Source: Pseudomonadota bacterium
GTDB taxonomy: Bacteria; Desulfobacterota; Desulfobulbia; Desulfobulbales; Desulfurivibrionaceae
Assembly (NCBI GenBank): GCA_018830485.1
Contig: JAHJRQ010000009.1
Coordinates: 1-52,454 of the forward strand
Length of the DNA stretch: 52,454 nucleotides
Reading direction: 5' to 3'
Positions 4,892-52,454 of the stretch are shown here, piece by piece. Both the position numbers and the translations under genes were made by a program. The notes below the pieces were generated by a model. The model was given only the letters and a program-made list of their open reading frames with translations. It was not told the DNA's origin and did not search any database. Position 1 is the stretch's first letter; the number at the start of each line of letters is the position of its first letter.

Positions 4892-5845
4892 ATGCGCGGG
4901 CACTCCGGGAAGAGGGTCGTGCGGAAGCATGACCCCGGCTGCAAGCGGGTGCCGGCGGGGGTGACTCCGGAGGAGGAGTTGGCCAATCTGTGGTCCCTGG
5001 TGCTGCATGCCGCGGATATCGAGCATGGCCTGCGCCATGGCGAAACGGGTTGGCAGCTCCTGGTTTCGGAGGAAAACATCTCCGAGGCCAGGGAGGAATT
5101 GCTTCTTTTCTCGGAAGAAAACCGGAACTGGCCGCCGGAACGGACAGCACTGTCAGGGCGGGAGCCCTTTGTCGAAAACTCGCCGCCCGTGCTGCCCGTC
5201 ATGGGGGCGCTGGTCGTGTTTCATGCCGTCACCGGCGGCGGAGAGGGGCGCGGCCACTGGTTTGACCTCGGCGCCCTCGACAGGGCTCGGGTGCTGGACG
5301 ACGGCCAGTGGTGGCGTCTGCTCACCGCCCTGACCCTGCATGCGGACAGCGTGCACCTGCTGGGCAATATTTTTTTCGGCGGGGTGCTGGTTCACTCCCT
5401 GTGCCGGCATCTCGGCAGCGGTATTGCCTGGTTCTCGGTGCTGCTCGCCGGGGTTCTTGCAAATGCCATCAATGTACTCCTGCACGGCGAATCCTATCGT
5501 TCCGTTGGTTTTTCCACCGCGGTTTTCGGCATGGTCGGCATGTTGAGCGGCATGCGTTTGCGCAGGATCGGCGGTTGGCAGGAGATGGTGCTTGCCTTGG
5601 GCAGCGCGGCAAGCCTGCTGGCGCTCATGGGGGCCTCCGGAGAGAGAACCGATCTGGGCGCGCATTTCTGGGGGGTTGTGGTCGGCCTGCTGGTTGGGGT
5701 GCTCCTTGGCGCGCTCGGGTTTGCCGGAAAACGGGCTCTTGCTCCCCTTGCCCAATGGCTGCTTTTTTCCGGCAGCCTGGCGGCGGTGCTCGGCTGCTGG
5801 CTGTACGCCCTGTATCCTTGGGAAGGGTGGTGGTTTGTTCAATGA
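4892..5845 (+). CDS. rhomboid-family intramembrane serine protease
   Basis: Cleaves membrane proteins within the bilayer. The 317 residues have a soluble N-terminal region (about 1-95) followed by six or more membrane helices. Catalytic features are visible: the oxyanion-type HADSVHLLGN segment (His150, His155, Asn159), the nucleophile in GFSTA (Ser208) and the base in GAHFWG (His258). The gene begins 3 bases after motB with GGGGAA upstream, so it is co-transcribed with the stator genes. This is an unusual partner whose substrate is unknown. The N-terminal region, with several Glu/Leu stretches, has no domain I recognise. Confidence 0.88.
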   Translation: MRGHSGKRVVRKHDPGCKRVPAGVTPEEELANLWSLVLHAADIEHGLRHGETGWQLLVSEENISEAREELLLFSEENRNWPPERTALSGREPFVENSPPVLPVMGALVVFHAVTGGGEGRGHWFDLGALDRARVLDDGQWWRLLTALTLHADSVHLLGNIFFGGVLVHSLCRHLGSGIAWFSVLLAGVLANAINVLLHGESYRSVGFSTAVFGMVGMLSGMRLRRIGGWQEMVLALGSAASLLALMGASGERTDLGAHFWGVVVGLLVGVLLGALGFAGKRALAPLAQWLLFSGSLAAVLGCWLYALYPWEGWWFVQ

Positions 5846-39631: not shown

Positions 39632-40206
39632 ATGAAAACCAGCCTGGCGCTTCTTGACGGGATGAAAATCCGGCGGACCGTGCACAACGGTGAGTGGTGG
39701 TTTGCTGTCGAGGATGTCTGCGGTGCGCTGATGGACAACCCGGATGCGGTGCCTCTTGGTGGAAACTGAAACAAGGTCTCAGGGCGGAGGGGTGTGAAGT
39801 CGTGACATTGTGTCACGCGTTGGGATTTCCTGCGATTGACGGAACAGAGCGGCATGTCGATTGTGTCACCATCGAGGGCATCTTCCGTATTGTTCAGTCC
39901 ATTTCCTCACCCAAGGCGGAAGTGTTCAAGCGCTGGCTGGCGGAGGCAGGCCGAGTACGGAAAAAACGGCAAGGGGGTAAGACTGATCTTGATTCTATTT
40001 TTTCCATGCTGGGTGAGGCTGCTACTGTAGAAATCGCCCGGAAGCGGGATGCGCAAGGGGTTGCAGAGGACGAGGAGGCGGCCCGCAAGGGCTGCGGCAT
40101 TGCCGGAGAGGCGCGGGAGAGGCTGGAACGGGAAGCAGGGGCGGGGGTGGTAACGGCGGGGAATTATCTGGCTGTGATTGAGGGGGGGGAACGGGTGAGG
40201 GAATGA
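39632..40206 (+). pseudogene. frameshifted Bro-N/phage-antirepressor-like gene
   Basis: The first frame (from the ATG at 39632) encodes LLDGMKIRRTVHNGEWWFAV, the start of a Bro-N domain, and hits a stop at about 39767. The rest continues in another frame from about 39755: SWWKLKQGLRAEGCEVVT, IEGIFRIVQSISSPKAEVFK, then a tail with ATVEIARKRDAQG and GEARERLEREAGAGVVTAG. Together they match the domain order of Bro-N/antirepressor proteins, so one frameshift near 39755 has broken the gene. A sequencing error is the alternative. Confidence 0.75.
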
Positions 40207-40258
40207 TTGGCCGGAATAAGCGCCGAAAATGACCGGGCAAACACGAACAGGGGGGGGA

Positions 40259-41440
40259 ATGACGAAAAAACCAAGAAAGTCAGGTAGTAACCCGGCAATC
40301 CATTACGAAACCGTCCTTGGGGACATCGCCAACGTCATTGATGCGGCCAAAGGTTCGGCGGCGCGTTCGATCAACAGCATCATGACGGCGGCATATTGGC
40401 TGGTCGGGCGGCGCATTGTGGAATACGAGCAAAAAGGTGAGAAGCGCGCAGTATACGGAGAGGAACTGCTCGAACGGTTATCCGTAGATCTCGGCAAACG
40501 CTATGGGCGCGGTTTTTCCAGGCAGAATCTCCAGCAGATGCGGCAACTCTATCTTCTCTATCTGCCGGAACAGATTTGCCAGACAGCGTCTGGCAAATCC
40601 GAACACTCTTCCAATACCATGATTTGCCCGACAGCGTCTGACATTTTGCAGACGCTGTCGGCAGAATTTCCCCTCTGGGATATTGCGCGCTGCTTCCCGC
40701 TTCCCTGGTCAGCCTATGTCCGGCTGTTTTCCGTCAAAAACGAGCTTGCCCGCAAGTTCTACGAAACCGAAGCCCTGCGCGGCGGTTGGTCGGTGCGGCA
40801 ACTTGACCGCCAGATCAATTCCCAGTTTTACGAGAGGACAGCCCTTTCCCGGAACAAGGCCGCCATGTTGAGCAAGGGGCAAAAGGCCCTGCCTGAAGAT
40901 CACGTTCACCCCGAGGAGGAAATCAAGAACCCATTTGTGCTTGAATTTCTCGGTCTCAAGGACGAATACTCCGAGAACGATTTGGAAGAGGCGCTGATCC
41001 GGCACCTGGAGACCTTCCTTCTGGAACTGGGTGGTGATTTCTGCTTTATCGGCAGGCAGAAGCGTTTGCGTATCGGTGACGAATGGTATCGGGTGGATTT
41101 GCTTTTCTTTCATCGTCGGTTGCGATGTCTGGTGGTCATCGACCTGAAGATCGGCGGATTCACCCACGCCGATGCCGGACAGATGCATCTCTATCTCAAC
41201 TATGCGCGGGAACACTGGGTTCAGAAAGGCGAAAACCCGCCGGTGGGGCTTATCCTCTGCGCGCGGAAAGACGATGCCGTCGCCCGGTACGCGCTGGAGG
41301 GACTCCCCAACAAGGTGATGGCGTCCGAGTATCGGACAGCGCTGCCCGATGAAAAGGAACTGGCCGCTGAAATCGAGCGGACTCGGATTTTGCTGGAGGA
41401 GAGAAAAAAATCACCCGCACGTCGACGAAAGTCGTTTTGA
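40259..41440 (+). CDS. DUF1016 (YhcG) PD-(D/E)XK nuclease
   Basis: The 393-residue protein has an N-terminal DUF1016-N domain (about 20-125), with RSINSIMTAAYWLVGRRIVE and RGFSRQNLQQMRQLY. A low-complexity linker follows, then a C-terminal PD-(D/E)XK nuclease domain (about 220-370) with VDLLFFHRRLRCLVVIDLKIG; the paired Asp and DLK residues form the metal site. Such proteins are tied to DNA processing and anti-phage or restriction islands; the exact role is open. The linker carries repeated GACAGCGTCTG motifs. The start at 40259 is preceded by a G-run acting as ribosome-binding site. It is flanked by antirepressor remnants. Confidence 0.9.
   Translation: MTKKPRKSGSNPAIHYETVLGDIANVIDAAKGSAARSINSIMTAAYWLVGRRIVEYEQKGEKRAVYGEELLERLSVDLGKRYGRGFSRQNLQQMRQLYLLYLPEQICQTASGKSEHSSNTMICPTASDILQTLSAEFPLWDIARCFPLPWSAYVRLFSVKNELARKFYETEALRGGWSVRQLDRQINSQFYERTALSRNKAAMLSKGQKALPEDHVHPEEEIKNPFVLEFLGLKDEYSENDLEEALIRHLETFLLELGGDFCFIGRQKRLRIGDEWYRVDLLFFHRRLRCLVVIDLKIGGFTHADAGQMHLYLNYAREHWVQKGENPPVGLILCARKDDAVARYALEGLPNKVMASEYRTALPDEKELAAEIERTRILLEERKKSPARRRKSF
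40573..40661. repeat. paired hairpins and direct repeat inside the DUF1016 gene
   Basis: GATTTGCCAGAC-AGC-GTCTGGCAAATC (40573-40599) is a perfect 12-bp palindrome. A 13-bp palindrome lies at 40628-40640/40649-40661. The 20 bases from 40573 recur at 40621 with one mismatch. The core GACAGCGTCTG thus occurs twice directly and once inverted, in the segment encoding the interdomain linker. Confidence 0.85.
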
Positions 41441-41498
41441 CAAAAGCCTCCGGAAAGAAAAAAGGCCATAATGGGGGCGAAAATGATGAAGGATAAAG

Positions 41499-41820
41499 AT
41501 GCAGTCCCCGGCCATGCGGATTTTCGCCCGGAAGCGTGATGCGCGTGGTTTTGCGGATAACAAGGTGGCGGCCCGCGAGGGCGGCGCCATTGCCGGGGAG
41601 GCGCGGGAGAGGCTGGAGCAGGAAACAGGGGAGGGAGTGGTTACGGCGGGGAATTATCTGGATGGGCCGGAGGGGCGGGAACGGTTGGAGGAGCAGAGGC
41701 AGGAAAGAGGAGAGGCGGCAGGATGATCATGGAGTTGATGATGGGAGTGTGGTTTGTAAGGGGAAGCAGATTGCCGATGAGGCGCGGGAGATGGCCAGGC
41801 GGAAAGGGGTGGTGATATGA
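41499..41820 (+). pseudogene. decayed copies of the antirepressor C-terminal tail
   Basis: From about 41520 the sequence encodes FARKRDARGFADNKVAAREG and GEARERLEQETGEGVVTAGN, a second copy of the tail at 40031-40180, similar in DNA as well as protein. A third, shorter echo (QIADEAREMARRKGVV) runs from about 41768 into the cas3 start, ending in a TGA that overlaps the cas3 ATG. No intact Bro-N domain precedes either. These look like truncated leftovers rather than genes, though 41499-41726 is an open frame with AAGGAT upstream. Confidence 0.6.
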
Positions 41821-44480
41821 ATTCTGCGCTTATGAACCATGAAATAGCAAACATTTGGGCTAAAACGGCAAGAGATGACAGTGCCTTTTGGCACCCCCTC
41901 ATCCTTCATCTCATGGATGTGGCGGCCAGTGCAGACGCAATCCTTACACGGGAGCCGGAATCTACTCGGGAAAGAATGGCTGAAGTCCTTGGATTGAGTT
42001 GGGAGGCTGCTCGCCCGTGGCTCCTGCTCGTAATTGCCTGCCACGACTTGGGCAAGGCCTGTCCCGGCTTTCAGTGCAAGTGGATCAATATGACAGGTTT
42101 GCCGTCGCCACGCAGTCCAAATACAGATATCAACCATGCCTTCGTGAGCCAAATTGCCTTGGCGGAGCTGTTGCAAGAAAGGGAGTGGTCGGAGGAACTG
42201 GCGGATCTCGCCGCTGATGCGGTGGGCTCTCACCACGGAGAACGGGCTTCATCTATTGTTCTTGCCAACCTCGCCGGAGATAGACGAGCACTGGGTGGTG
42301 TCGAGTGGCAAGAGGCCAGGCGGGATCTTGTGGCGTTACTGTTGAATGTTTTTGAGCCTGCGGAGATTCCCCGCAACCATAAAATGACTGGGCCACAGTT
42401 CATGTTGCTCGCCGGTCTGACGAGTTTTGCCGATTGGATCGGCTCCAACGAAGAGTGGTTTCCATTTGGCCACACTGTCGATTGCCAAAACCCGGCGGCG
42501 TGGTTTCAAAAGCGTCGGGTTTGTGCCGAACACGCCTTGGACGTCATCGGTTGGGCGCCTCGAACCCCGCTTTCTCCTGAGTCCAAAGGCTTCGAACAGG
42601 TTTTTGATTTTTCCCCTCGTTCCTTGCAACAGGCGGTCGCCGATGCCCTGGTCGATTTGCAGGAGCCGGCCATCCTGCTGGTGGAAGCCCCCATGGGCGA
42701 GGGCAAGACCGAGGCAGCTTTTTTCGCCCATCTGGAGTTGCAGCGGCGTTTCGGGCACCGTGGTCTATATGTCGCCCTGCCAACCAAGGCCACCGGCAAC
42801 GCCATGTTCAAACGCACCCTCAAGTTCTTGCACAGCCAAGGCGCGGAACGCAAGCTCGACTTACAACTCTTGCACGGCGCAACACTCCTCAATGACACCT
42901 TCCAGAACTTGCAGCTCACTGGTATCCACGATCCTGAAACTGGCGGCGAGATTCGCGCCGGTGAATGGTTTACCAGTAAGAAGCGGGCATTGCTCTCGGA
43001 ATACGGGGTGGGCACGGTGGATCAAGCTCTGCTTCCCATTCTGCCGGTTCGGCACAACTTTGTCCGGCTTTGGGGCCTGGCGAACCGGGTAGTTGTCTTT
43101 GACGAAATCCACGCCTACGATGCCTACACGGGCACGCTTCTGGAACACTTGCTGCGCTGGCTTCTCGCCCTGGGCTCTTCGGTGGTTCTGCTGTCCGCGA
43201 CCTTGCCACCGACCATTCGTCGCAAGCTGGCCGAAGTGGTCAACGCCGATTTACCGGAACAGGAAGAAGCCTATCCCCGTCTTTCCGTTTTTCGCTCCGG
43301 TGCTGTTGACCAGATCCATTTCCCAGCCGATCCCTCACGGCGTCTGACTTTGCGGCTCCAGGCGGTTTCTCCTGAATTGTCGGCAATTCGAGCCGCTCTG
43401 GAGGACGTGCTTGCTCAAGGCGGAATGGGACTGGCGTTGGTCAATACTGTTCAGCGGGCGCAAGACCTTTATCGTCTCTTCCCCGACGGCGAACCCCTGG
43501 AGCATGAAGGCCAGCGGATTGGCAAACGTCTTGCCGATGGGACGGAGGTGCATCTTTTTCACGCCCGATTTCCGGCTGACCAGAGGCAGAAACGGGAAGA
43601 CCATGCCTTGGCTGCCTTCGGCGAACATGGGGAGCGGACTGGCCGGAAAATCCTCATCGCCACCCAGGTGGCCGAGCAGAGTCTCGACCTGGATTTCGAC
43701 GTGATCGCCACCGATCTTGCCCCCATTGACCTGGTGCTGCAGCGGGCGGGGCGCTTGTGGCGACATAAGCGGGATACGTCGGAGCGTGGGGGAATCACCG
43801 AGCCGATTCTCATGGTGGCGGGACTAGCCGGTGACGAACCGCCTTCTTTTGGGAAGCCACTCTGGTGGGGTGCGGTATATCGAGAGGATCTGTTGTTGCG
43901 TACCTGGTGTCTGCTTCGGGAGCGACAAAGCCTGACGCTGCCGGATGAGATCGACACCATGGTGCAGGCGGTGTATGAGGAACAGGTGGATGTCCCGGAG
44001 TCTTTGAGGGAAAGAATGGATATGGCCATGATGGCCGAAGGGGAAGATTATGCACGCCGGGGGCAGGCGAACCAGGCGATTATCGGGCTACCCGACGATG
44101 CCTCGTGGAATGATCCGGCGAGATTTGTTCTGTACGACGAAGATTCACCGAGTGTTCATCGAACCCTCATGGCCCAAACCAGACTTGGTGAAGACTCGGT
44201 TGCCGCCATCCCGTTATGGCCGGGCGACGGATTCATCTCCGAGACCCAGCCTGGCTTTGAACTATCCAAACAATGGTTTCAGCGGGGTGTGAGTCTATCG
44301 CGCAAGGGCGTAGTCAGAAAGCTTCAAGCAAAAGGTGTGCCTGAAGGCTGGAAGAAATCGTCGCTTCTGCGGAACTGCTTCCCGCTGGATTTGGACGACG
44401 AGGGATGCTGGAAAACAGATGCAACTGTGCGGCTGGATGTCGATCTGGGTGTGGTGTTCGAAAACAAGGAGGAAGAATGA
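41817..44480 (+). CDS. cas3: CRISPR-associated helicase/nuclease Cas3 (type I-E)
   Basis: Degrades target DNA after recruitment by Cascade. The 887 residues have an N-terminal HD nuclease domain, with histidines in HLMDVA (His31), CHDLGKA (His76, Asp77) and the later GSHHGE. The SF2 helicase domain has Walker A EAPMGEGKT (K297), DEIH box VVFDEIHAYD (429-432), LLSATLPP and the C-terminal ATQVAEQSLDLDFD with QRAGRLWRH. A Cas3 C-terminal domain follows. All catalytic residues I can see are intact. The ATG overlaps the TGA of the preceding remnant, and the stop overlaps the cse1 ATG (ATGA). Confidence 0.96.
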   Translation: MNSALMNHEIANIWAKTARDDSAFWHPLILHLMDVAASADAILTREPESTRERMAEVLGLSWEAARPWLLLVIACHDLGKACPGFQCKWINMTGLPSPRSPNTDINHAFVSQIALAELLQEREWSEELADLAADAVGSHHGERASSIVLANLAGDRRALGGVEWQEARRDLVALLLNVFEPAEIPRNHKMTGPQFMLLAGLTSFADWIGSNEEWFPFGHTVDCQNPAAWFQKRRVCAEHALDVIGWAPRTPLSPESKGFEQVFDFSPRSLQQAVADALVDLQEPAILLVEAPMGEGKTEAAFFAHLELQRRFGHRGLYVALPTKATGNAMFKRTLKFLHSQGAERKLDLQLLHGATLLNDTFQNLQLTGIHDPETGGEIRAGEWFTSKKRALLSEYGVGTVDQALLPILPVRHNFVRLWGLANRVVVFDEIHAYDAYTGTLLEHLLRWLLALGSSVVLLSATLPPTIRRKLAEVVNADLPEQEEAYPRLSVFRSGAVDQIHFPADPSRRLTLRLQAVSPELSAIRAALEDVLAQGGMGLALVNTVQRAQDLYRLFPDGEPLEHEGQRIGKRLADGTEVHLFHARFPADQRQKREDHALAAFGEHGERTGRKILIATQVAEQSLDLDFDVIATDLAPIDLVLQRAGRLWRHKRDTSERGGITEPILMVAGLAGDEPPSFGKPLWWGAVYREDLLLRTWCLLRERQSLTLPDEIDTMVQAVYEEQVDVPESLRERMDMAMMAEGEDYARRGQANQAIIGLPDDASWNDPARFVLYDEDSPSVHRTLMAQTRLGEDSVAAIPLWPGDGFISETQPGFELSKQWFQRGVSLSRKGVVRKLQAKGVPEGWKKSSLLRNCFPLDLDDEGCWKTDATVRLDVDLGVVFENKEEE

Positions 44481-45997
44481 GCCGATACAATCTAATTGAC
44501 GAGAAGTGGATTCCGGTGCGGTTTCACGATGGTGCCCGCGACGAACTGGGCATCAGCGCCACCCTGCTGCGGGCCGGGGAGATTGCCGCCATTGAGGATT
44601 CCTCCCCGCTGGTGGTGGCCGCCCTGCACCGTTTTTTGCTGGCACTCCTTTATCGGGCGCTGGAAGGTCCGACCGACATCGACCAGGCCAAGACCCTGTT
44701 CAAGACCGGTCTGCCGGCTGAAAAGATCACCGCCTATCTGGAAAAGTGGTGGGATCGGTTCTGGTTGTTTGACGAGAAGTATCCGTTTGGGCAGATACCG
44801 ACATTCGATCCAAAAATCTGGAGATCCTGGACGGTTCTTGCGGCTGAACATAATGCTGATAACGCCAAGGTGCTTTTCGATCATGTCGATATCGAAGCGC
44901 CTGGTAGCATCATCGAGGGGGCAGCGGCGCGTTGGCTCCTTGCCACGCAGACTTTTTCGGTGAGCTGCGGAAAGAGCGAACTTGCCCATACCGGCACCGC
45001 GCCATCTGCAACCGCCGCAATGGTCTTACCCCTTGGGCGTGATCTTCAGGACACCCTCCTTTTTGCATTGGTTCCTCAGAACAGGACAATCTCTTGTCAA
45101 GATATTCCCCTCTGGGAGAGAGAACCGGAAACAGTTGGGCAATTAAAGGATGGTATCGAGCGCGGAACCAGTGGGCTTGCCGACCGTTACACGTGGCGAA
45201 TTCGTGCCGTCCGTTTTCACGCGGAGGAAACAGGCCAGATCGAGAAACTGGCCTTTGCCTCCGGCGTCGGAAATGCTTCGCTGGAACAACTCGACCCTAT
45301 GCTCGCCTACAGGATTGACGAGAAGAAGGGGAAGTTGCCCATCCAGTTCCGCGACCGGGGGCTGTGGCGGGAATTTGACTCACTCCTCCCTGATGATTCG
45401 AAGCTGGCCCCCCAGGTGATTGAACATGCAACGGCATTGACCCGTTTGCACAGAGAACGCTTCCCGAGATCGGTAATGGTTCTCGGACAAGCAAATAACA
45501 AGGCGAAAATAGAATTTTGGCGCATTGAGCGTTTTGCTATGCCGGAAGCTTTGGCGGGAGATCGCTATATCCGGACGGAGATTGGCCAGCTTCTCACCGA
45601 TGCGGAAGAGAGCCAAAAATCCCTGTGGGACGCATGTAGTTCATTCGCACGAGATCTGCTCAGTCGAGGAAGTCGGTCAACGGATAAGGATGACGTGAGG
45701 AAATTCGTCAAACAGATGCCGGTAATCCCTTGGTACTGGTCAACGTTGGAGGCACGCTTTCATGATGTCCTGGGGGAGTACTCCCTCGACCGGGATCCCG
45801 AGGATATTCGTTGCCAATGGCTGAAGTCCGTCCGGGATACGTTGACAGCGGCCTGGCGGCAACATAGTGCGGCGGTATTCATGGGCGATGCCTGGACAAT
45901 CCGTGCTCTGGTAAAGGCGGAAAGGTATATATCACGCAAGCAAAAGGAATTGAATGACGAGATCAAGAAACTCGAACCGCAGGAGGAAAACGCATGA
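44477..45997 (+). CDS. cse1: Cascade large subunit Cse1/CasA
   Basis: The large subunit of the type I-E Cascade complex, which reads the PAM and recruits Cas3. The 506 residues begin SRYNLIDEKWIPVRF, the hallmark start of Cse1, followed by the LVVAALHRFLLALLYRAL helix region and FWLFDEKYPFGQIP. The C-terminal half carries the four-helix bundle. AGGAGGAAGA immediately precedes the ATG at 44477, inside the end of cas3, and the ATGA overlap points to coupled translation. Confidence 0.95.
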   Translation: MSRYNLIDEKWIPVRFHDGARDELGISATLLRAGEIAAIEDSSPLVVAALHRFLLALLYRALEGPTDIDQAKTLFKTGLPAEKITAYLEKWWDRFWLFDEKYPFGQIPTFDPKIWRSWTVLAAEHNADNAKVLFDHVDIEAPGSIIEGAAARWLLATQTFSVSCGKSELAHTGTAPSATAAMVLPLGRDLQDTLLFALVPQNRTISCQDIPLWEREPETVGQLKDGIERGTSGLADRYTWRIRAVRFHAEETGQIEKLAFASGVGNASLEQLDPMLAYRIDEKKGKLPIQFRDRGLWREFDSLLPDDSKLAPQVIEHATALTRLHRERFPRSVMVLGQANNKAKIEFWRIERFAMPEALAGDRYIRTEIGQLLTDAEESQKSLWDACSSFARDLLSRGSRSTDKDDVRKFVKQMPVIPWYWSTLEARFHDVLGEYSLDRDPEDIRCQWLKSVRDTLTAAWRQHSAAVFMGDAWTIRALVKAERYISRKQKELNDEIKKLEPQEENA

Positions 45998-46455
45998 CCG
46001 GATTCATCGAATGGCTGGAAGGTCTGAACAAGAAAGACACCAAGGTAAGGGCGGTGCTGCGGCGGAGTCTGGCCTTTGATCCCGGCACTTTTACCGCAGC
46101 ATATCCTTATGTGGAACCATTCGTAAAGAATGAAGACAGTTCCTGGCGGCGAAAGATGCACTATCTGGTGGCCGGACTCTGGGCTGCGCACTGGCGGGAG
46201 GGACGTATCGGAGCGCCGCTGCCAATCGGAAAGGCTTCGGCCACATATCAGGTGGCAAGCGGCTCAACCAGTATCGAGCGCCGTTTCATCACGCTGCTGG
46301 ATGCCGATCCCGACCAGTTACCCCATCGTCTGCGCCAGATGTTGGCGCTACTTAAGGATCAAGCCATCGATTTCGATGATTTACTGAAGGGCTTGCTGTA
46401 TTGGAATGACGACAGAAAACGCACTCAAAATGCTTGGGCACGTGCTTTCTATTAA
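45994..46455 (+). CDS. cse2: Cascade small subunit Cse2/CasB
   Basis: The small Cascade subunit, present in two copies in the known E. coli complex, which stabilises the displaced DNA strand. The 153-residue helical protein has RAVLRRSLAFDPGTF and IERRFITLLDADPDQLPHRL, both typical of the family. Its ATG overlaps the cse1 stop (ATGA). A 58-base gap separates it from cas7e, the longest break among the Cascade genes. Confidence 0.93.
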   Translation: MTGFIEWLEGLNKKDTKVRAVLRRSLAFDPGTFTAAYPYVEPFVKNEDSSWRRKMHYLVAGLWAAHWREGRIGAPLPIGKASATYQVASGSTSIERRFITLLDADPDQLPHRLRQMLALLKDQAIDFDDLLKGLLYWNDDRKRTQNAWARAFY

Positions 46456-46513: not shown

Positions 46514-47677
46514 ATGAAAACAATTATCGAGATCCATGCCTTACAGAACTTTGCTCCGTCTAACCTGAACCGCGACGACACCGGAGCTCCCAAGGATGCC
46601 ATGTTCGGGGGCACTCGCCGCGCCCGGGTGTCCAGTCAGTGTCTCAAGCGGGCGGTGCGCGAGCATTTCAAGGGGTTGGTGAAACAAAATCAGATGGATT
46701 CAGATGATGTCGCCTTCCGCACGAAGCGGGGCTTGGATGCGATCACCCAGGTATTGGTTGCAAAAGGTAAACCCATGGACGAGGCAGCCGCAAAGGCGCG
46801 TCTGGCTTTGGCAGCCGTGGAACTGACGGTGAAAGAGGACGGCAAGAGCGAATATCTTCTCTTCTTGGGGCAGCGGGAAATTTCCATGGTTGCCGATGTT
46901 ATCTATGACAAGTGGGATACCATCACCCCATCCGAGGCGCCAACCGAAGAGGGGAAAAAACCCGGCAAGGCCAAGAAGCAGGCGGCGCAAGGCACGGACC
47001 CGGAATTGCGGAAGGCTCTCGATAAGGTGTTTAACGGCGGTAAGGCCGTGGATGTGGCGCTCTTTGGCCGCATGCTGGCCGACATGCCCGAGAAAAACCA
47101 GCACGCCGCCTGCCAAGTGGCCCATGGCATTTCAACCCATGCCGTGGATCAGGAGTTCGATTTCTATACCGCCGTTGACGACCTTAAGCCCGAGGACACC
47201 GCTGGTGCCGACATGATGGGCACAGTGGAGTTCAACTCTGCCTGTTTCTATCGCTATGCCGTGGTGGATTGGGAGAAACTCGTGGAGAATCTCCAGAACG
47301 ATAAAGAGCTGGCGGCCAAGGGGCTGCGTGCCTTTCTGGAAGGATTCGTGGTGGCCGAGCCCACCGGTAAACAGAATACCTTCGCGGCCCATAATCCGCC
47401 GGAGTTCGTGGTCGTCTCCGTTCGCCACAACACCGCCCCCCGCAATCTGGCCAACGCCTTCGAGACAGCCATTCGCGTGCGGAAAGATGAGTCGCTGACC
47501 AGCAAGTCGGCAGAGGCATTTGCCCAAAAAGCCAAGGTGTTACAGGCGGCTTACGGTGGCAAGGGGGAATGTTTTGTCCTTAATCTCACCGAGGCCAAAG
47601 TGGATGGAATCGGCACGTCCGAAAAAACACTGGCGGATGTACTCGATAAGGCCCTTGAGGCTGCAAAGAAGGAGTGA
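46514..47677 (+). CDS. cas7e: Cascade backbone subunit Cas7e/CasC
   Basis: Forms the six-copy filament along the crRNA. The 387 residues begin IIEIHALQNFAPSNLNRDDTG and PKDAMFGGTRRARVSSQCLKR, the conserved RNA-binding start of Cas7e. VAHGISTHAVDQEFDFYTAVDD and FNSACFYRYAVVD are further landmarks. A Lys-rich segment (around 136-160, including GKKPGKAKKQ) makes it somewhat longer than the E. coli protein (about 363). AAGGAG sits about 8 bases before the ATG. Confidence 0.96.
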   Translation: MKTIIEIHALQNFAPSNLNRDDTGAPKDAMFGGTRRARVSSQCLKRAVREHFKGLVKQNQMDSDDVAFRTKRGLDAITQVLVAKGKPMDEAAAKARLALAAVELTVKEDGKSEYLLFLGQREISMVADVIYDKWDTITPSEAPTEEGKKPGKAKKQAAQGTDPELRKALDKVFNGGKAVDVALFGRMLADMPEKNQHAACQVAHGISTHAVDQEFDFYTAVDDLKPEDTAGADMMGTVEFNSACFYRYAVVDWEKLVENLQNDKELAAKGLRAFLEGFVVAEPTGKQNTFAAHNPPEFVVVSVRHNTAPRNLANAFETAIRVRKDESLTSKSAEAFAQKAKVLQAAYGGKGECFVLNLTEAKVDGIGTSEKTLADVLDKALEAAKKE

Positions 47678-47680
47678 GCC

Positions 47681-48376
47681 ATGCCTACGTTATTGCTTCG
47701 CCTGGTTGGCCCCATGCAGTCGTGGGGAACCACCAGCCGTTTTGACCAACGTGATACCGGCAAGGAGCCCAGTAAGTCCGGGGTCATCGGGCTCCTTGCC
47801 GCCGCCATGGGGATCGACCGGGAAAACTGGCCGGATCTGGAACCGCTCACCCGCCTCGCCCTGGGGGTTCGCCACGACCGGCCTGGGGTGCCCAAGCGGG
47901 ACTACCAAACCGCCGGTTGCGCCACTGGTGACACCATTATCAAGGCGGATGGAAAACCGTCCAAAGATGGGGTGGTCTCCCAGCGCTTTTACCTTGCCGA
48001 TGCGGCCTTTCTGGTCGGGCTGGAAGGCGATGACCGGGTATTTTTGGAAAAGGTCCATGCTGCCCTCCGCAATCCGGTTTGGCCCTTGGCTTTGGGGCGA
48101 AAATCCTATGTGCCATCCGAACAGGTATGGCTTGAAGATGGAGTTCAGGATGCGCCGTTGCGGGAGGTCTTAGCGCGATGGCCGTGGATCGCATCGCCCC
48201 GGAAATGGGAAGAGCCCCCGGAAAAGCTCTTGGTTTCCTTTGAAACCGAGGATGGTTCAGGGGTTCTTAAAGTTGATCAGCCGCTGTCCTCGTTTGCCGA
48301 ACGCCGTTTTGGGACGCGGTTCGTGCGCTCGGAGTGGATAGCTTTCCCTCAGGAGGTGGCCCATGTTCCTGCATAG
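47681..48376 (+). CDS. cas5e: Cascade subunit Cas5e/CasD
   Basis: Caps the 5' handle of the crRNA in Cascade. The 231-residue RAMP protein begins with LLLRLVGPMQSWGTTSRF and SGVIGLLAAAMGI, the Cas5e signature. It starts 3 bases after the cas7e stop with AAGGAG inside the cas7e end. Its 3' end overlaps cas6e by 14 bases. Confidence 0.95.
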   Translation: MPTLLLRLVGPMQSWGTTSRFDQRDTGKEPSKSGVIGLLAAAMGIDRENWPDLEPLTRLALGVRHDRPGVPKRDYQTAGCATGDTIIKADGKPSKDGVVSQRFYLADAAFLVGLEGDDRVFLEKVHAALRNPVWPLALGRKSYVPSEQVWLEDGVQDAPLREVLARWPWIASPRKWEEPPEKLLVSFETEDGSGVLKVDQPLSSFAERRFGTRFVRSEWIAFPQEVAHVPA

Positions 48377-49043
48377 GATACATCTCGATCCACGCTGCCG
48401 GGAGGCGCGGCGCGATCTTGCCGATCCATACCAGCTGCATTCGACTCTCTGCCGAGCCTTCAGCCCTCCGGACAGCAAATGTCCCGCCGGGGAATTACTG
48501 TGGCGGCTTGAACCGGAAACCGATCATTCCGGGCGCCCTCGAATCATTGTGCAAAGCCGGTCGCTTCCGAATTGGGATGGCATCGGCGTCAAGGGCTGGC
48601 TGGCCCAGGCAGACCCGGCTGTTGACCTGCGTGACCGGCTGCGGCTTGATGCAATCAAGGCCGGGCAGCGTTTCCGATTCCGCTTGCGCGCCAATCCCTG
48701 CGTGACTCGGAACGGAAAACGGTTGGGGTTGTTGCACAGAGAGGAGCAAGAGACTTGGCTGGCGCGAAAAGGTGAACGGCATGGGTTTGCGCTGCCGCAA
48801 TCGGCATCCGTTGATTTCTCCGGTCATTCAACGGCGAGGGCTGATGTCTGGATTTCACAAGAGATTATGCTTCGGGGGAAGCAGCATTCCGGAAATGGTA
48901 TTCGCATTTTTTCGATACTCTACGATGGTTTCCTGCGAGTCACCGAGCCGGAGGCATTTCGCATCACTTTGCAAGCCGGCATTGGACACGGCAAAGCCTT
49001 GGGACTTGGGCTTTTGTCGGTGGCGCCTGCTGTTTATGAGTGA
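48363..49043 (+). CDS. cas6e: crRNA endonuclease Cas6e/CasE
   Basis: Cuts the CRISPR transcript at the base of each repeat hairpin and stays bound to the 3' end. The 226 residues form a double ferredoxin-like protein. Tyr23 and His26 in DPYQLHSTL match the catalytic residues known from Thermus Cas6e, and a glycine-rich loop GIGHGKALGLGLL lies near the C-terminus. AGGAGG precedes the ATG within cas5e. It is followed not by cas1 but, after 41 bases, by a RhuM-Fic gene. Confidence 0.95.
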   Translation: MFLHRIHLDPRCREARRDLADPYQLHSTLCRAFSPPDSKCPAGELLWRLEPETDHSGRPRIIVQSRSLPNWDGIGVKGWLAQADPAVDLRDRLRLDAIKAGQRFRFRLRANPCVTRNGKRLGLLHREEQETWLARKGERHGFALPQSASVDFSGHSTARADVWISQEIMLRGKQHSGNGIRIFSILYDGFLRVTEPEAFRITLQAGIGHGKALGLGLLSVAPAVYE

Positions 49044-49084
49044 TTTTGGTCAATATTCTTGCAAATGCGGGAGGGTATACCGAC

Positions 49085-50061
49085 ATGAACCCCGATCTTG
49101 GAGAAATCATCCTCTATCAGTCCGAGGACGGCACAAACGCCCTTGATGTGCACCTGAAGGACGAGACGGTCTGGCTGACGCTCAATCAGATGGCTGAGCT
49201 TTTCGGGCGCGACAAGTCAGTAATTTCCCGTCATTTACTAAGCGTCTTTCGCGCAGGTGAGTTGATCAGGAATTCAGTTGTTGCAAAAAATGCAACAACT
49301 GCCGCCGATGGCAAGATATATCAGGTCGAGTATTTCAACCTCGACGCCGTTATCTCCGTGGGCTACCGGGTCAACTCCAAACGCGGCACCCAATTCCGCA
49401 TCTGGGCCACCGGAGTTTTGAAGGATCATCTGGTGCGGGGCTATACCCTCAACCAGCGGCGATTGGCCGAGAAGGGGGTTGACGAACTGAAGCAGGCCAT
49501 GGCCCTGCTGGCCACCACCTTGGAAAGCCACGATTTGGTCAGCGACGAAGGCCGGGCGGTCTTGGAGGTGGTCAGCCGCTATGCCCACACCTGGCGGCTT
49601 CTGCTTGAGTACGACGAGGAACGGTTGCTGGTGCCGGTGGCCCGGCATGGGGCAGGGACCGGGCTTCGGCTTGATGAAGTCCGCCGAGCCATCGCCGCCC
49701 TGAAAAAAGAGCTGGCGGCGCGGGGCGAGGCCAGCGACCTCTTCGGCCAGGAACGGGGCCATGGTCTTGCCGGTATCCTCGGCGCCATCGAGCAGAGTTT
49801 TGGCGGTCAGGACCTCTACCCGAGCGTCGAGGGAAAGGCGGCTCATCTCCTTTACTTCGTCATCAAGGATCACCCCTTCAGCGACGGCAACAAGCGGATC
49901 GGTTCCTTCCTTTTCGTGCTCTATTTGCGGCAGAACAGCCTTGCCGGTTTCGACAACCGGTCCCTAGTGGCCCTGGCCCTGCTTACCGCGGCCAGCGAAC
50001 CGGGCCACAAGGATTTATTGGTGCGGCTGATTGTGAATTTGATTGCCGAGGAAAAGGCGCC

Positions 50062-50065
<4 letters not shown>
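49085..50065 (+). CDS. RhuM-Fic fusion protein inserted in the cas operon
   Basis: The 326-residue protein has an N-terminal RhuM (virulence protein RhuM-like) region (about 10-135), with WLTLNQMAELFGRDKSVISRHL, a helix-turn-helix-like segment, and YFNLDAVISVGYRVNSKRGTQFR. A helical linker follows, then a C-terminal Fic/Doc domain with the active-site motif HPFSDGNKRIGS (His263 to Arg271). Fic enzymes transfer AMP or phosphate to proteins. The GNKR form, with lysine where GNGR is usual, leaves the donor unclear. I see no (S/T)xxxE(G/N) inhibitory helix and no separate antitoxin gene. GGGAGG lies about 10 bases upstream. Its stop overlaps the cas1 ATG (ATGA). Confidence 0.92.
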
Positions 50066-51280
<1,215 letters not shown>

Positions 51281-51347
51281 CAGGCTGAAAGTTGGTAGTT
51301 TTTTGTTCTTTGAAAATTAAACGGATTTTCAAAGGGATAGAGGAAGT
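51281..51347 (+). promoter_or_regulatory. CRISPR leader
   Basis: The 67 AT-rich bases between cas2 and the first repeat should hold the array promoter and the site where Cas1-Cas2 dock. A perfect 9-bp inverted repeat, TTTGAAAAT (51309-51317) with ATTTTCAAA (51325-51333), sits in its centre. TTGTTC and AT-rich runs could form a weak promoter, but I cannot fix the start site. Confidence 0.7.
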
Positions 51348-52454
51348 ATGTTCCCCACACCCGTGGGGATGAACCGGCGTTAAAACGCCTGCTGGAAGAG
51401 GCAGGGGAATGTTCCCCACACCCGTGGGGATGAACCGCATCAACAAGGATGGGCGTTGCCGGGTTGGAAATGTTCCCCACACCCGTGGGGATGAACCGCC
51501 GACCAGCATCAACGTGAACGCATCAAAGCTATGTTCCCCACACCCGTGGGGATGAACCGTACCTGTCAATGGCCCTTGTATTCACATTGCTATGTTCCCC
51601 ACACCCGTGGGGATGAACCGGACGCACTACGCGACCATGCGGCCAACGAATAATGTTCCCCACACCCGTGGGGATGAACCGACCCCATTTCAGATATGGC
51701 CATCACAGATGCGATGTTCCCCACACCCGTGGGGATGAACCGCGTGTTTGCTATTCTCGCAGGTTAGGGCTGCAATGTTCCCCACACCCGTGGGGATGAA
51801 CCGCTCTTTCATGGCGGCGTAGGATTGACCGAGGCATGTTCCCCACACCCGTGGGGATGAACCGGTGAATAGCTTTGTTTGTTTCCCAGAAAGGAGATGT
51901 TCCCCACACCCGTGGGGATGAACCGCACCATAAACGGTTTGTGGCTAGCATTGTGCGATGTTCCCCACACCCGTGGGGATGAACCGGCGTTATCAACATA
52001 AACAAAACTGTTGCCCTTATGTTCCCCACACCCGTGGGGATGAACCGTTGAATTATGGAGTTATGGATCCGGCAGCGTTATGTTCCCCACACCCGTGGGG
52101 ATGAACCGCTCTGGATAGGTCTTGCGGAACATTATGCCCCATGTTCCCCACACCCGTGGGGATGAACCGATAACCACAACCAGAATAACCGCCTTCCAAA
52201 GATGTTCCCCACACCCGTGGGGATGAACCGGCGTTTGGATGGGCCGTGGTGAGGTTCTTCATATGTTCCCCACACCCGTGGGGATGAACCGGAAATTCAA
52301 AAATCAGGGAATTGTGTGGTTGAATGTTCCCCACACCCGTGGGGATGAACCGTGTCTCTGAGGCCATTGTGGCACCGCGCAGAAATGTTCCCCACACCCG
52401 TGGGGATGAACCGGGGTATTAACTTCCTTGGGCACTCAACTCTCAATGTTCCCC
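51348..52454 (+). CRISPR. type I-E CRISPR array, 18 full repeats plus a cut one
   Basis: The 29-base repeat (ATGTTCCCCACACCC, then GTGGGGATGAACCG) starts at 51348 and recurs exactly every 61 bases (51409, 51470 and so on to 52385), with a 19th copy cut by the window end at 52446. All 18 full copies look identical. Each of the 18 spacers is 32 bases. The repeat has a CCCCAC-ACCC-GTGGGG hairpin; Cas6e cleavage after it would leave an ATGAACCG 5' handle, parallel to the E. coli I-E handle. Orientation matches the leader at 51281-51347. No spacer obviously matches another part of this window by eye. Confidence 0.98.

Follow-up and report, generated by a model that had tools for sequence, protein, structure and literature searches.

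A RhuM-Fic gene between the effector and adaptation modules of type I CRISPR loci descends with the adaptation module

We found that a gene fusing a RhuM-type N-terminal part to a Fic domain, sited between the effector and adaptation modules of type I CRISPR loci, descends with the adaptation module and not with the effectors. This points to a possible coupling of spacer capture to a protein that arrests growth or acts as a regulator.

The RhuM-Fic gene and its type I-E locus

The window, by which we mean the whole 52,454-nucleotide stretch of DNA that was analysed, carries a complete type I-E locus: cas3, cse1, cse2, cas7, cas5, cas6e, cas1 and cas2, each above a curated Pfam or NCBIfam cut-off, and an array.

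41817-44480, plus strand: cas3 (Pfam/NCBIfam, above curated cut-off)
44405-45997, plus strand: cse1 (Pfam/NCBIfam; start of the open reading frame given, an internal ATG may be the true start)
45994-46455, plus strand: cse2 (Pfam/NCBIfam)
46514-47677, plus strand: cas7e (Pfam/NCBIfam)
47681-48376, plus strand: cas5e (Pfam/NCBIfam)
48363-49043, plus strand: cas6e (Pfam/NCBIfam)
49085-50065, plus strand: RhuM-Fic gene between cas6e and cas1 (Pfam; ATG start, TGA stop at 50063-50065, 326 codons)
50062-50985, plus strand: cas1 (Cas1e; TIGR03638, 380 bits)
50966-51280, plus strand: cas2 (Cas2e; TIGR01873)
51348-52454, strand not assigned: CRISPR array (61-nt period, continuing past the window end)

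RhuM-Fic breaks the canonical cas6e-cas1-cas2 adjacency, and the locus is still type I-E. The open reading frame, the Pfam matches and the motif at residues 263-271 confirm what a sequence-only reading of the window had described, a 326-codon RhuM-Fic gene with an intact HPFSDGNKR between cas6e and cas1; that reading also saw no antitoxin gene, and the neighbours are indeed cas6e and cas1. A gap of 41 nt separates the end of cas6e (49043) from the gene. An upstream in-frame GTG at 49040 offers an alternative start (341 aa); we prefer ATG 49085 because the alignment of relatives begins there. A scan of 48300-51400 found no promoter-like site between cas6e and RhuM-Fic and two weak ones, inside cas1 and cas2 (2 vs 1.2 in shuffles). 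The PADLOC profile PDC-S23 spans residues 7-321 (5e-122). The gene is under purifying selection, with a dN/dS of 0.16 between the window copy and its nearest relative, L004, and of 0.05-0.31 across 15 RhuM-Fic pairs.

Two other parts of this genome hold related genes. Upstream of cas3, at 39632-41726, a broken Bro-N gene (tblastn pieces at 39632-40197) is followed by a DUF1016/YhcG nuclease (40229-41440, PADLOC PDC-S02) and then by a second, C-terminal Bro-N remnant (41523-41702); the two remnants contain a 169-nt direct repeat. Elsewhere, a second full RhuM-Fic (L139, G000:C9:211511-212473; 48% identity) lies between hsdS- and hsdM-like matches.

Domains, motif and predicted fold

The protein divides into an N-terminal part that probably binds DNA and a C-terminal Fic/Doc domain.

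49085-49474, plus strand: N-terminal part, residues 1-130 (probable winged-helix, KilA-N/BRO-like DNA-binding domain, with a Virulence_RhuM match at 64-130)
49697-49927, plus strand: Fic/Doc domain, residues 205-281 (Pfam PF02661, 43 bits, cut-off 24)
49871-49897, plus strand: Fic motif HPFSDGNKR, residues 263-271 (fits HxFx(D/E)GNxR)

Virulence_RhuM (PF13310) matched residues 64-130 with 78.5 bits against a cut-off of 33.7, covering model positions 1-70 of 252 only. Among 64 aligned relatives, H263, P264, F265, D267, G268, N269, K270 and R271 were identical in every row, and all 64 matched Fic (PF02661) at E up to 1. The motif was present in 123 of 124 distinct RhuM-Fic proteins, the single exception being truncated.

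We built an AlphaFold2 model (A1) from the 64 sequences, which was of moderate quality (pLDDT 75, pTM 0.47). In this model, residues 191-322 aligned by VIA-align with P1 Doc (3dd7) at Z 12.6 and rmsd 2.4 over 120 of 122 residues; three Doc entries scored Z 12.3-12.6 and the other Fic structures listed reached at most 7.5. The C-terminal domain is thus predicted to fold like P1 Doc. P1 Doc has kinase activity and modifies the translation machinery. A Foldseek search of the model against the PDB gave no match at E up to 0.001, and one PDB sequence matched the RhuM-Fic profile at E up to 0.01, the death-on-curing protein 9vzc (E 5e-5). In Fic classes II and III, (S/T)xxxE(G/N) is an intramolecular inhibitory motif; it does not define Doc. 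This inhibitory helix was not conserved here, occurring in 10 of 64 rows within residues 130-215 and in 1 of 64 at the C-terminus.

The N-terminal part is probably, on weak structural resemblance, a DNA binder of the KilA-N/BRO type: the model of residues 1-116 gave weak matches to a granulovirus Orf22 domain (4ye7, Z 6.9) and to the Mbp1 DNA-binding domain (1bm8, Z 5.1). Its comparison with Bro-N by hhalign was likewise weak, residues 20-111 aligning in register to 15-108 at E 0.0018 and a probability of 15%. A model of a Bro-N protein, itself poor (pLDDT 58), has the same strand-helix order, E-E-H-H-H-E-E-H-H, from residue 19 or 17. By sequence, an identity of the RhuM N-domain with Bro-N is suggestive only (probabilities of 1.7% and 15%; 3 of 64 members match Pfam Bro-N, at E 0.005 at best).

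Recurrence of the position across genomes

We scanned GTDB genomes for RhuM-Fic loci and took the best 80 of 280, which are the nearest relatives. In these 80, tblastn with cas queries found type I-E neighbours in L004, L010, L039 and L040. It also placed, to our surprise, a cas4-cas1-cas2 set of I-C type downstream of RhuM-Fic in many more loci. For example, Desulfofustis glycolicus DSM 9705 (L032) has the order cas3-cas5-cas8c-cas7-RhuMFic-cas4-cas1-cas2, in which Cas8c, Cas7, Cas4 and Cas1c exceed their NCBIfam cut-offs and the other genes are assigned by position and size. "I-C" here denotes the cas4-cas1-cas2 type, and the effectors are not always I-C (in L069 the Cas5 and Cas7 scores fall below the I-C cut-offs). 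One locus, L041:5-7984, is type I-F; there RhuM-Fic follows cas6f and is itself followed by array-like repeats.

We then took a census of 257 genomes of the window's order, Desulfobulbales. RhuM-Fic (E up to 1e-60) was present in 89 of them, in 91 copies; Cas1c above cut-off was found in 59 genomes and Cas1e in 24. Counting a copy as linked when its end lay at most 3.5 kb upstream of Cas1 on the same strand, RhuM-Fic preceded 27 of 62 Cas1c places and 5 of 24 Cas1e places, with 0.025 linked places expected under uniform placement in an assumed genome of 3.8 Mb. Cas1c places below the family cut-off were left out, save two truncated ones (G253, G028); those above cut-off alone give 26 of 60. 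Between RhuM-Fic and Cas1c lies cas4 and, at times, also a Bro-N gene. In all, 32 of the 91 copies in the order were cas-linked, and ten further copies adjoin cas remnants or cas genes truncated at the end of a contig, which brings the number to 42 of 91.

An even draw across the phylum found RhuM-Fic (E up to 1e-80) in 28 of 395 genomes. Twenty of these lie outside the order, and we inspected one copy per genome (20 of 22 copies). Three copies, at 67% identity, adjoin cas4-cas1, and at least two of them are also in our named set (L013, L019); the other 17, at 45-53% identity, had no cas match, and restriction-modification (R-M) homologues were near 6 of the 17. Homologues adjoining cas1 are therefore neither confined to the window's genome nor spread without regard to cas genes. 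A chance insertion of RhuM-Fic is rejected on the recurrence of its position.

One cas-linked clade and co-inheritance with adaptation genes

We placed 124 distinct RhuM-Fic proteins, the nearest relatives rather than all RhuM-Fic, on a quick IQ-TREE tree with SH-aLRT support and no bootstrap. Neighbours within 3.5 kb were labelled by script at low thresholds (45 bits for cas, 60 bits for R-M), giving 46 rows of I-C type, 7 of I-E, 24 R-M and 47 other. All 53 cas-linked rows fell inside one clade of 64 rows (SH-aLRT 99), and a cas label occurred in none of the 60 rows outside it. Its other members are 11 "other" rows, among which is the I-F locus; R-M rows are absent from it. The I-E label required 7 changes for 7 rows, 6 of them forced by starred branches, and RhuM-Fic has therefore reached the I-E junction repeatedly.

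Within the clade, a subclade of six rows (L048, L050, L150, L168, L171, L172) had no cas match nearby, L048 being on a short contig; two of the six come from Candidatus Electrothrix. Of the five frames that were checked, four lack an internal stop, and the Fic motif is retained in all five.

Next, we compared protein distances in 37 distinct loci of cas4 type, picked by hand with remnants and most contig-end loci omitted (n 25-37 per gene pair). With host phylogeny not a covariate, RhuM-Fic distances correlated with those of Cas1 (r 0.57, n 36), Cas2 (0.55, n 33) and Cas4 (0.33, n 37), at 0 of 1000 permutations each, and not with those of Cas7 (-0.03), Cas5 (-0.05), Cas3 (-0.01) or Cas8 (-0.06), at n 25-34 and 575-779 of 1000 permutations. 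Between cas genes of the I-C-type loci, r was 0.05 for Cas1 vs Cas7 and 0.88 for Cas7 vs Cas3. A set of 24 spaced representatives gave the same pattern more weakly (Cas1 0.28, Cas7 0.01), and Spearman correlations agreed; the duplicate locus L146, equal to L016, was removed for the 37-locus test and is still in the data behind the 24-representative test. The N-terminal part tracks Cas1 less closely than the other parts of the protein do (Spearman 0.23 vs 0.52 and 0.36), and in the mosaic pairs L147/L170 and L112/L177 the N-terminal part has diverged and the Fic part much less so.

The sequence-only reading had proposed that the gene is tied to adaptation and is not an accidental insertion. Both proposals are supported by the recurrent position (27 of 62 and 5 of 24 places), the single cas-linked clade and the distances that follow Cas1, Cas2 and Cas4.

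Overlap with the next gene

In the window, the stop codon of RhuM-Fic overlaps the start of cas1, as had been noted from the sequence.

50062-50065, plus strand: ATGA shared by the end of RhuM-Fic and the beginning of cas1 (cas1 ATG 50062-50064, TGA 50063-50065)

We checked six I-E copies, one of them a remnant (L131), and 28 I-C-type loci for conservation of this arrangement. The exact ATGA was kept in the window and in L124 and absent from the other four I-E copies: L127 and L131 have a 1-nt TAATG overlap with cas1, in L119 cas1 starts 46 nt downstream, and in L118 it lies about 246 nt downstream (stop at 4996, cas1 match from 5243). Of the I-C-type loci, a single one (L157) has exact ATGA; in 22 of 28, as an upper bound, the next open reading frame, usually cas4, has an ATG, GTG or TTG that overlaps or lies at most 25 nt away. 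Because the Bro-N genes of L117 and L252 also overlap the next gene, such overlap is not specific to RhuM-Fic.

The effector-adaptation junction as a gene-exchange site

The junction between effector and adaptation genes is a gene-exchange site. Among the 24 I-E junctions of the order, 19 hold an accessory gene or remnant: RhuM-Fic in 5 (once with a Bro-N gene and once with a SoFic-like gene), a RhuM-Fic remnant in 1, a Bro-N gene in 10, a truncated Bro-N in 1, a DUF1016 nuclease in 1 and a four-helix protein in 1. The remaining 5 have no recognised accessory gene. The 62 I-C places hold RhuM-Fic in 27 (9 of them with a Bro-N gene or piece too, so that Bro-N is not an obligate partner), RhuM-Fic remnants in 4, mixed remnants in 1, intact Bro-N in 7, Bro-N fragments in 2 and SoFic-like fragments in 3; 18 have no recognised accessory gene, several of these being truncated at contig ends. 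For each junction family other than RhuM-Fic, one member was named by Pfam or NCBIfam. Because a Bro-N protein without a Fic domain occupies the same place, the slot does not require a toxin.

One exchange is seen between the window and L130, a locus of the same genus in which Cas1 is 99% and the effectors are mostly 80-92% identical (cse1 62%) and the junction gene is Bro-N. DNA similarity ends at about 49025, near the end of cas6e, and returns at 50060, two bases before the cas1 ATG. In L124, from another genus, RhuM-Fic is kept at 78% identity, in line with the rest of the operon.

Other traces of rearrangement were seen around these loci. Cas1 is 99-100% identical between the window and L129, L130 and L132, and the cas3 and cas7 proteins of L129 and L132 are only 30-34% identical to those of the window: adaptation and effector modules are shuffled among I-E loci within one genus. 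RhuM-Fic-like gene pieces lie directly upstream of cas3, at the 5' end of the oriented locus, in L116, L121 and L126, a second accessory position. Five loci (L008, L019, L029, L260, L261) carry an extra cas4 fragment upstream of RhuM-Fic and another cas4 downstream, as if RhuM-Fic-cas4-cas1-cas2 had arrived as a cassette and left the older cas4 in pieces.

A palindrome inside the coding region

The part of the gene that encodes the predicted DNA-binding domain contains a perfect inverted repeat.

49275-49301, strand not assigned: perfect inverted repeat CAGTTGTTGCA-N5-TGCAACAACTG (residues 64-73; the end of a short helix and a strand in the model)

The region could be located in 113 of 124 RhuM-Fic genes, and its best inverted repeat had arms of at least 9 in 88 of 113 genes, compared with 4 of 672 control windows taken from these genes; arms averaged 10.8 vs 4.8 under synonymous resampling. 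The letters vary between genes and the symmetry is retained. With crude typing of 97 rows, arm types required at least 20 changes on the tree vs 34 in shuffles. In the window's genome, one exact copy of the core was found, inside RhuM-Fic, and none ahead of the cas operon; the remaining matches carry 3 mismatches (3 places vs 1 for a reversed control pattern).

We also found the core of the window's form, GTTGTTGCA-N5-TGCAACAAC, in 73 stretches of viral contigs, of which 59 are distinct with full flanks, vs 1 and 0 for two control palindromes. Eleven of these copies lie in open reading frames that are RhuM-like by motif search and a few more in frames that are so by eye; the rest lie in unrelated frames. 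In one tail-sheath family, about 10 extra residues are present at the site (11 of 40 rows shown, 80 aligned), which is suggestive, as one case, of this palindrome being an insertion. A second family palindrome, GCAATATGCA-N5-TGCATATTGC, occurred in 13 viral stretches, 2 of them in RhuM-like frames; the viral excess does not generalise to it because most of the others look like terminators of a few related phages. We consider two ideas for the palindrome, a putative binding site of the RhuM-Fic protein or a mobile palindrome.

Interpretation

We read RhuM-Fic as an accessory of the adaptation module and most likely, although we hold this tentatively, as a conditional growth-arrest switch whose catalysis, toxicity, target, trigger and inhibitor we infer. 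The protein is apparently made from one message with Cas1-Cas2 and is inherited with cas1-cas2 in I-E or cas4-cas1-cas2 in I-C loci. Its probable DNA-binding part might silence it, or might sense infection or DNA processing; the Doc-like domain would then modify a host protein, for example of the translation machinery, and the cell would be slowed during spacer capture or upon failure of immunity. Cas1/Cas2 or a DNA-bound state would presumably keep it inactive. A published hypothesis, in the accessible part of its text, links immunity to dormancy, with Cas proteins put forward as the inhibitors (PMC3506569), and an ordinary antitoxin would for that reason not be required. SoFic, a Fic system, conferred phage resistance according to the available text of another report (PMC11514479). 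Cas1 is not an indispensable antitoxin, because open RhuM-Fic frames persist next to a decayed cas1 or cas4, or where these are missing, and a general defence role is possible because other RhuM-Fic clades occupy type I R-M loci. A more elaborate form of the switch strikes us as quite improbable: a dedicated lineage that is a mobile, heritable component of the adaptation module (cas4-cas1-cas2 of I-C, cas1-cas2 of I-E) and that senses DNA and ties Doc-type dormancy to spacer acquisition, in which the palindrome, lying in the DNA-reading wing, could be the protein's own site, so that specificity and site would change together.

The sharing of the slot by several unrelated genes also fits another account, in which RhuM-Fic, Bro-N, SoFic and DUF1016 are genes of a selfish or generic anti-phage kind, lodged in defence operons that are expressed, the boundary being a harmless spot for recombination. 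Decay at this slot is frequent, type I R-M loci house relatives (24 of 124 rows, a loose label), and effector and adaptation modules are shuffled (Cas1 vs Cas7 r 0.05). Against such cargo stand the gathering of all cas-linked rows in one clade that lacks R-M rows, distances that follow the adaptation genes despite the effector genes on the other side of RhuM-Fic, and the common close spacing to the next gene; we think this account somewhat unlikely. Co-inheritance with Cas1 also fits a regulator of adaptation, whose DNA-binding domain would control cas transcription or mark the leader or prespacer and whose Fic domain would modify Cas1/Cas2 or itself; a Bro-N replacement, with the same kind of N-domain, would do the same job. 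Bro-N is the commonest alternative junction gene (alone in 10 of 24 I-E junctions, intact without a full RhuM-Fic in 7 of 62 I-C places) and shares a predicted strand-helix order and a weak in-register profile match with the RhuM N-terminal part, the gene-for-gene exchange is precise at cas6e|cas1, and the palindrome could be an operator. The conserved Fic catalytic motif, however, exceeds the needs of a pure repressor, the Bro-N model is poor (pLDDT 58), and the palindrome core has its single exact genomic copy within RhuM-Fic, with none before the cas operon; a regulator is, in our judgement, unlikely.

The sequence-only reading had suggested, as a speculative model, an addiction or abortive-infection arm that guards the locus. 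As an addiction guard, RhuM-Fic would be a toxin restrained by cas products so that loss of the locus is lethal, as in CreTA. A Doc-like fold, the lack of a separate adjacent antitoxin and the overlap with cas1 all agree with such a guard, and toxin-antitoxin guards of CRISPR exist, as far as the accessible text of two papers goes (PMC9458426, PMC8501985). How the gene is lost and kept speaks against it. Open RhuM-Fic frames with the full motif lie beside decayed cas1 or cas4 or no cas match (L010, L039, L051, L066, L149, L150, L168), RhuM-Fic remnants lie beside retained cas genes (L131, L233, L236, L237, L247), and in the close sister locus L130 Bro-N has replaced RhuM-Fic with cas kept. A search for a CreA-type ectopic repeat found nothing above shuffle level: ahead of the array, the best match anywhere in the window reached 18 of 27 bases, and from 38 kb to the array it reached 17, against 15-19 in shuffles. 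Strict addiction is therefore disfavoured, and we give the guard very little chance of being right.

Comparison with known systems

That spacer capture might be coupled with dormancy was put forward in 2012 (PMC3506569, accessible part). We describe a toxin-like gene that descends with cas1-cas2-cas4 and not with the effectors, and its presence in culture-collection strains, for example Desulfofustis glycolicus DSM 9705 (L032) and Desulfobulbus rhabdoformis DSM 8777 (L034), makes this idea testable. The effector-adaptation junction also stands out as a place of gene exchange, with an accessory gene or remnant in 19 of 24 I-E junctions of the order.

The presence of RhuM-Fic in type I cas loci is already known. 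In the available portion of their paper, Zhang, Doak and Ye described in 2013 a set of 10 Fic/DOC genes from cas loci of type I, some of which include Virulence_RhuM; 8 of the 10 carry a motif other than HPFxxGNG, and the genes were interpreted as a coupling of immunity and dormancy (PMC3936711). The likeness to our case is Fic with RhuM in type I cas loci; unlike here, the junction position, the cas-linked clade, co-inheritance with cas1 and exchange with Bro-N are not mentioned in that portion. Neither "RhuM" nor "Fic" occurs in the main text of the 2025 CRISPR classification. In the accessible literature that we consulted on RhuM or Fic with cas or CRISPR, which excludes systematic surveys of CRISPR neighbourhoods in subscription journals, we found no description of the clade, the junction or the co-inheritance.

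Several other systems share a part of this arrangement. In the type II-C loci of Bacteroides fragilis, RhuM open reading frames lie between cas1 and cas9, likewise at the border of effector and adaptation genes (2017, PMC5704556); that system is of another type, and the available part of the paper describes the genes as RhuM only and mentions no Fic. CreTA guards type I CRISPR and is likewise a toxin-like gene tied to it; its toxin, however, is an RNA that Cascade represses via an ectopic repeat, as given in the accessible parts of its descriptions (PMC9458426, PMC8501985), and no such repeat was found around RhuM-Fic. PADLOC PDC-S23 matches the whole of RhuM-Fic and differs in being a candidate family of single-gene phage defence, with an entry that draws no CRISPR link. 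The C-terminal model aligns over nearly all of P1 Doc (Z 12.6), which is a free toxin with the antitoxin Phd; the domain studied here is instead fused to an N-terminal part, stands beside cas genes and has the motif DGNKR. The RhuM-DOC genes of R-M loci, predicted in the available text to be the toxin of a layered defence (PMC3710099), have the identical domain fusion, and the window's genome itself holds such a copy near hsdM and hsdS homologues; they differ in that the rows labelled R-M fall outside the clade that holds the cas-linked genes.
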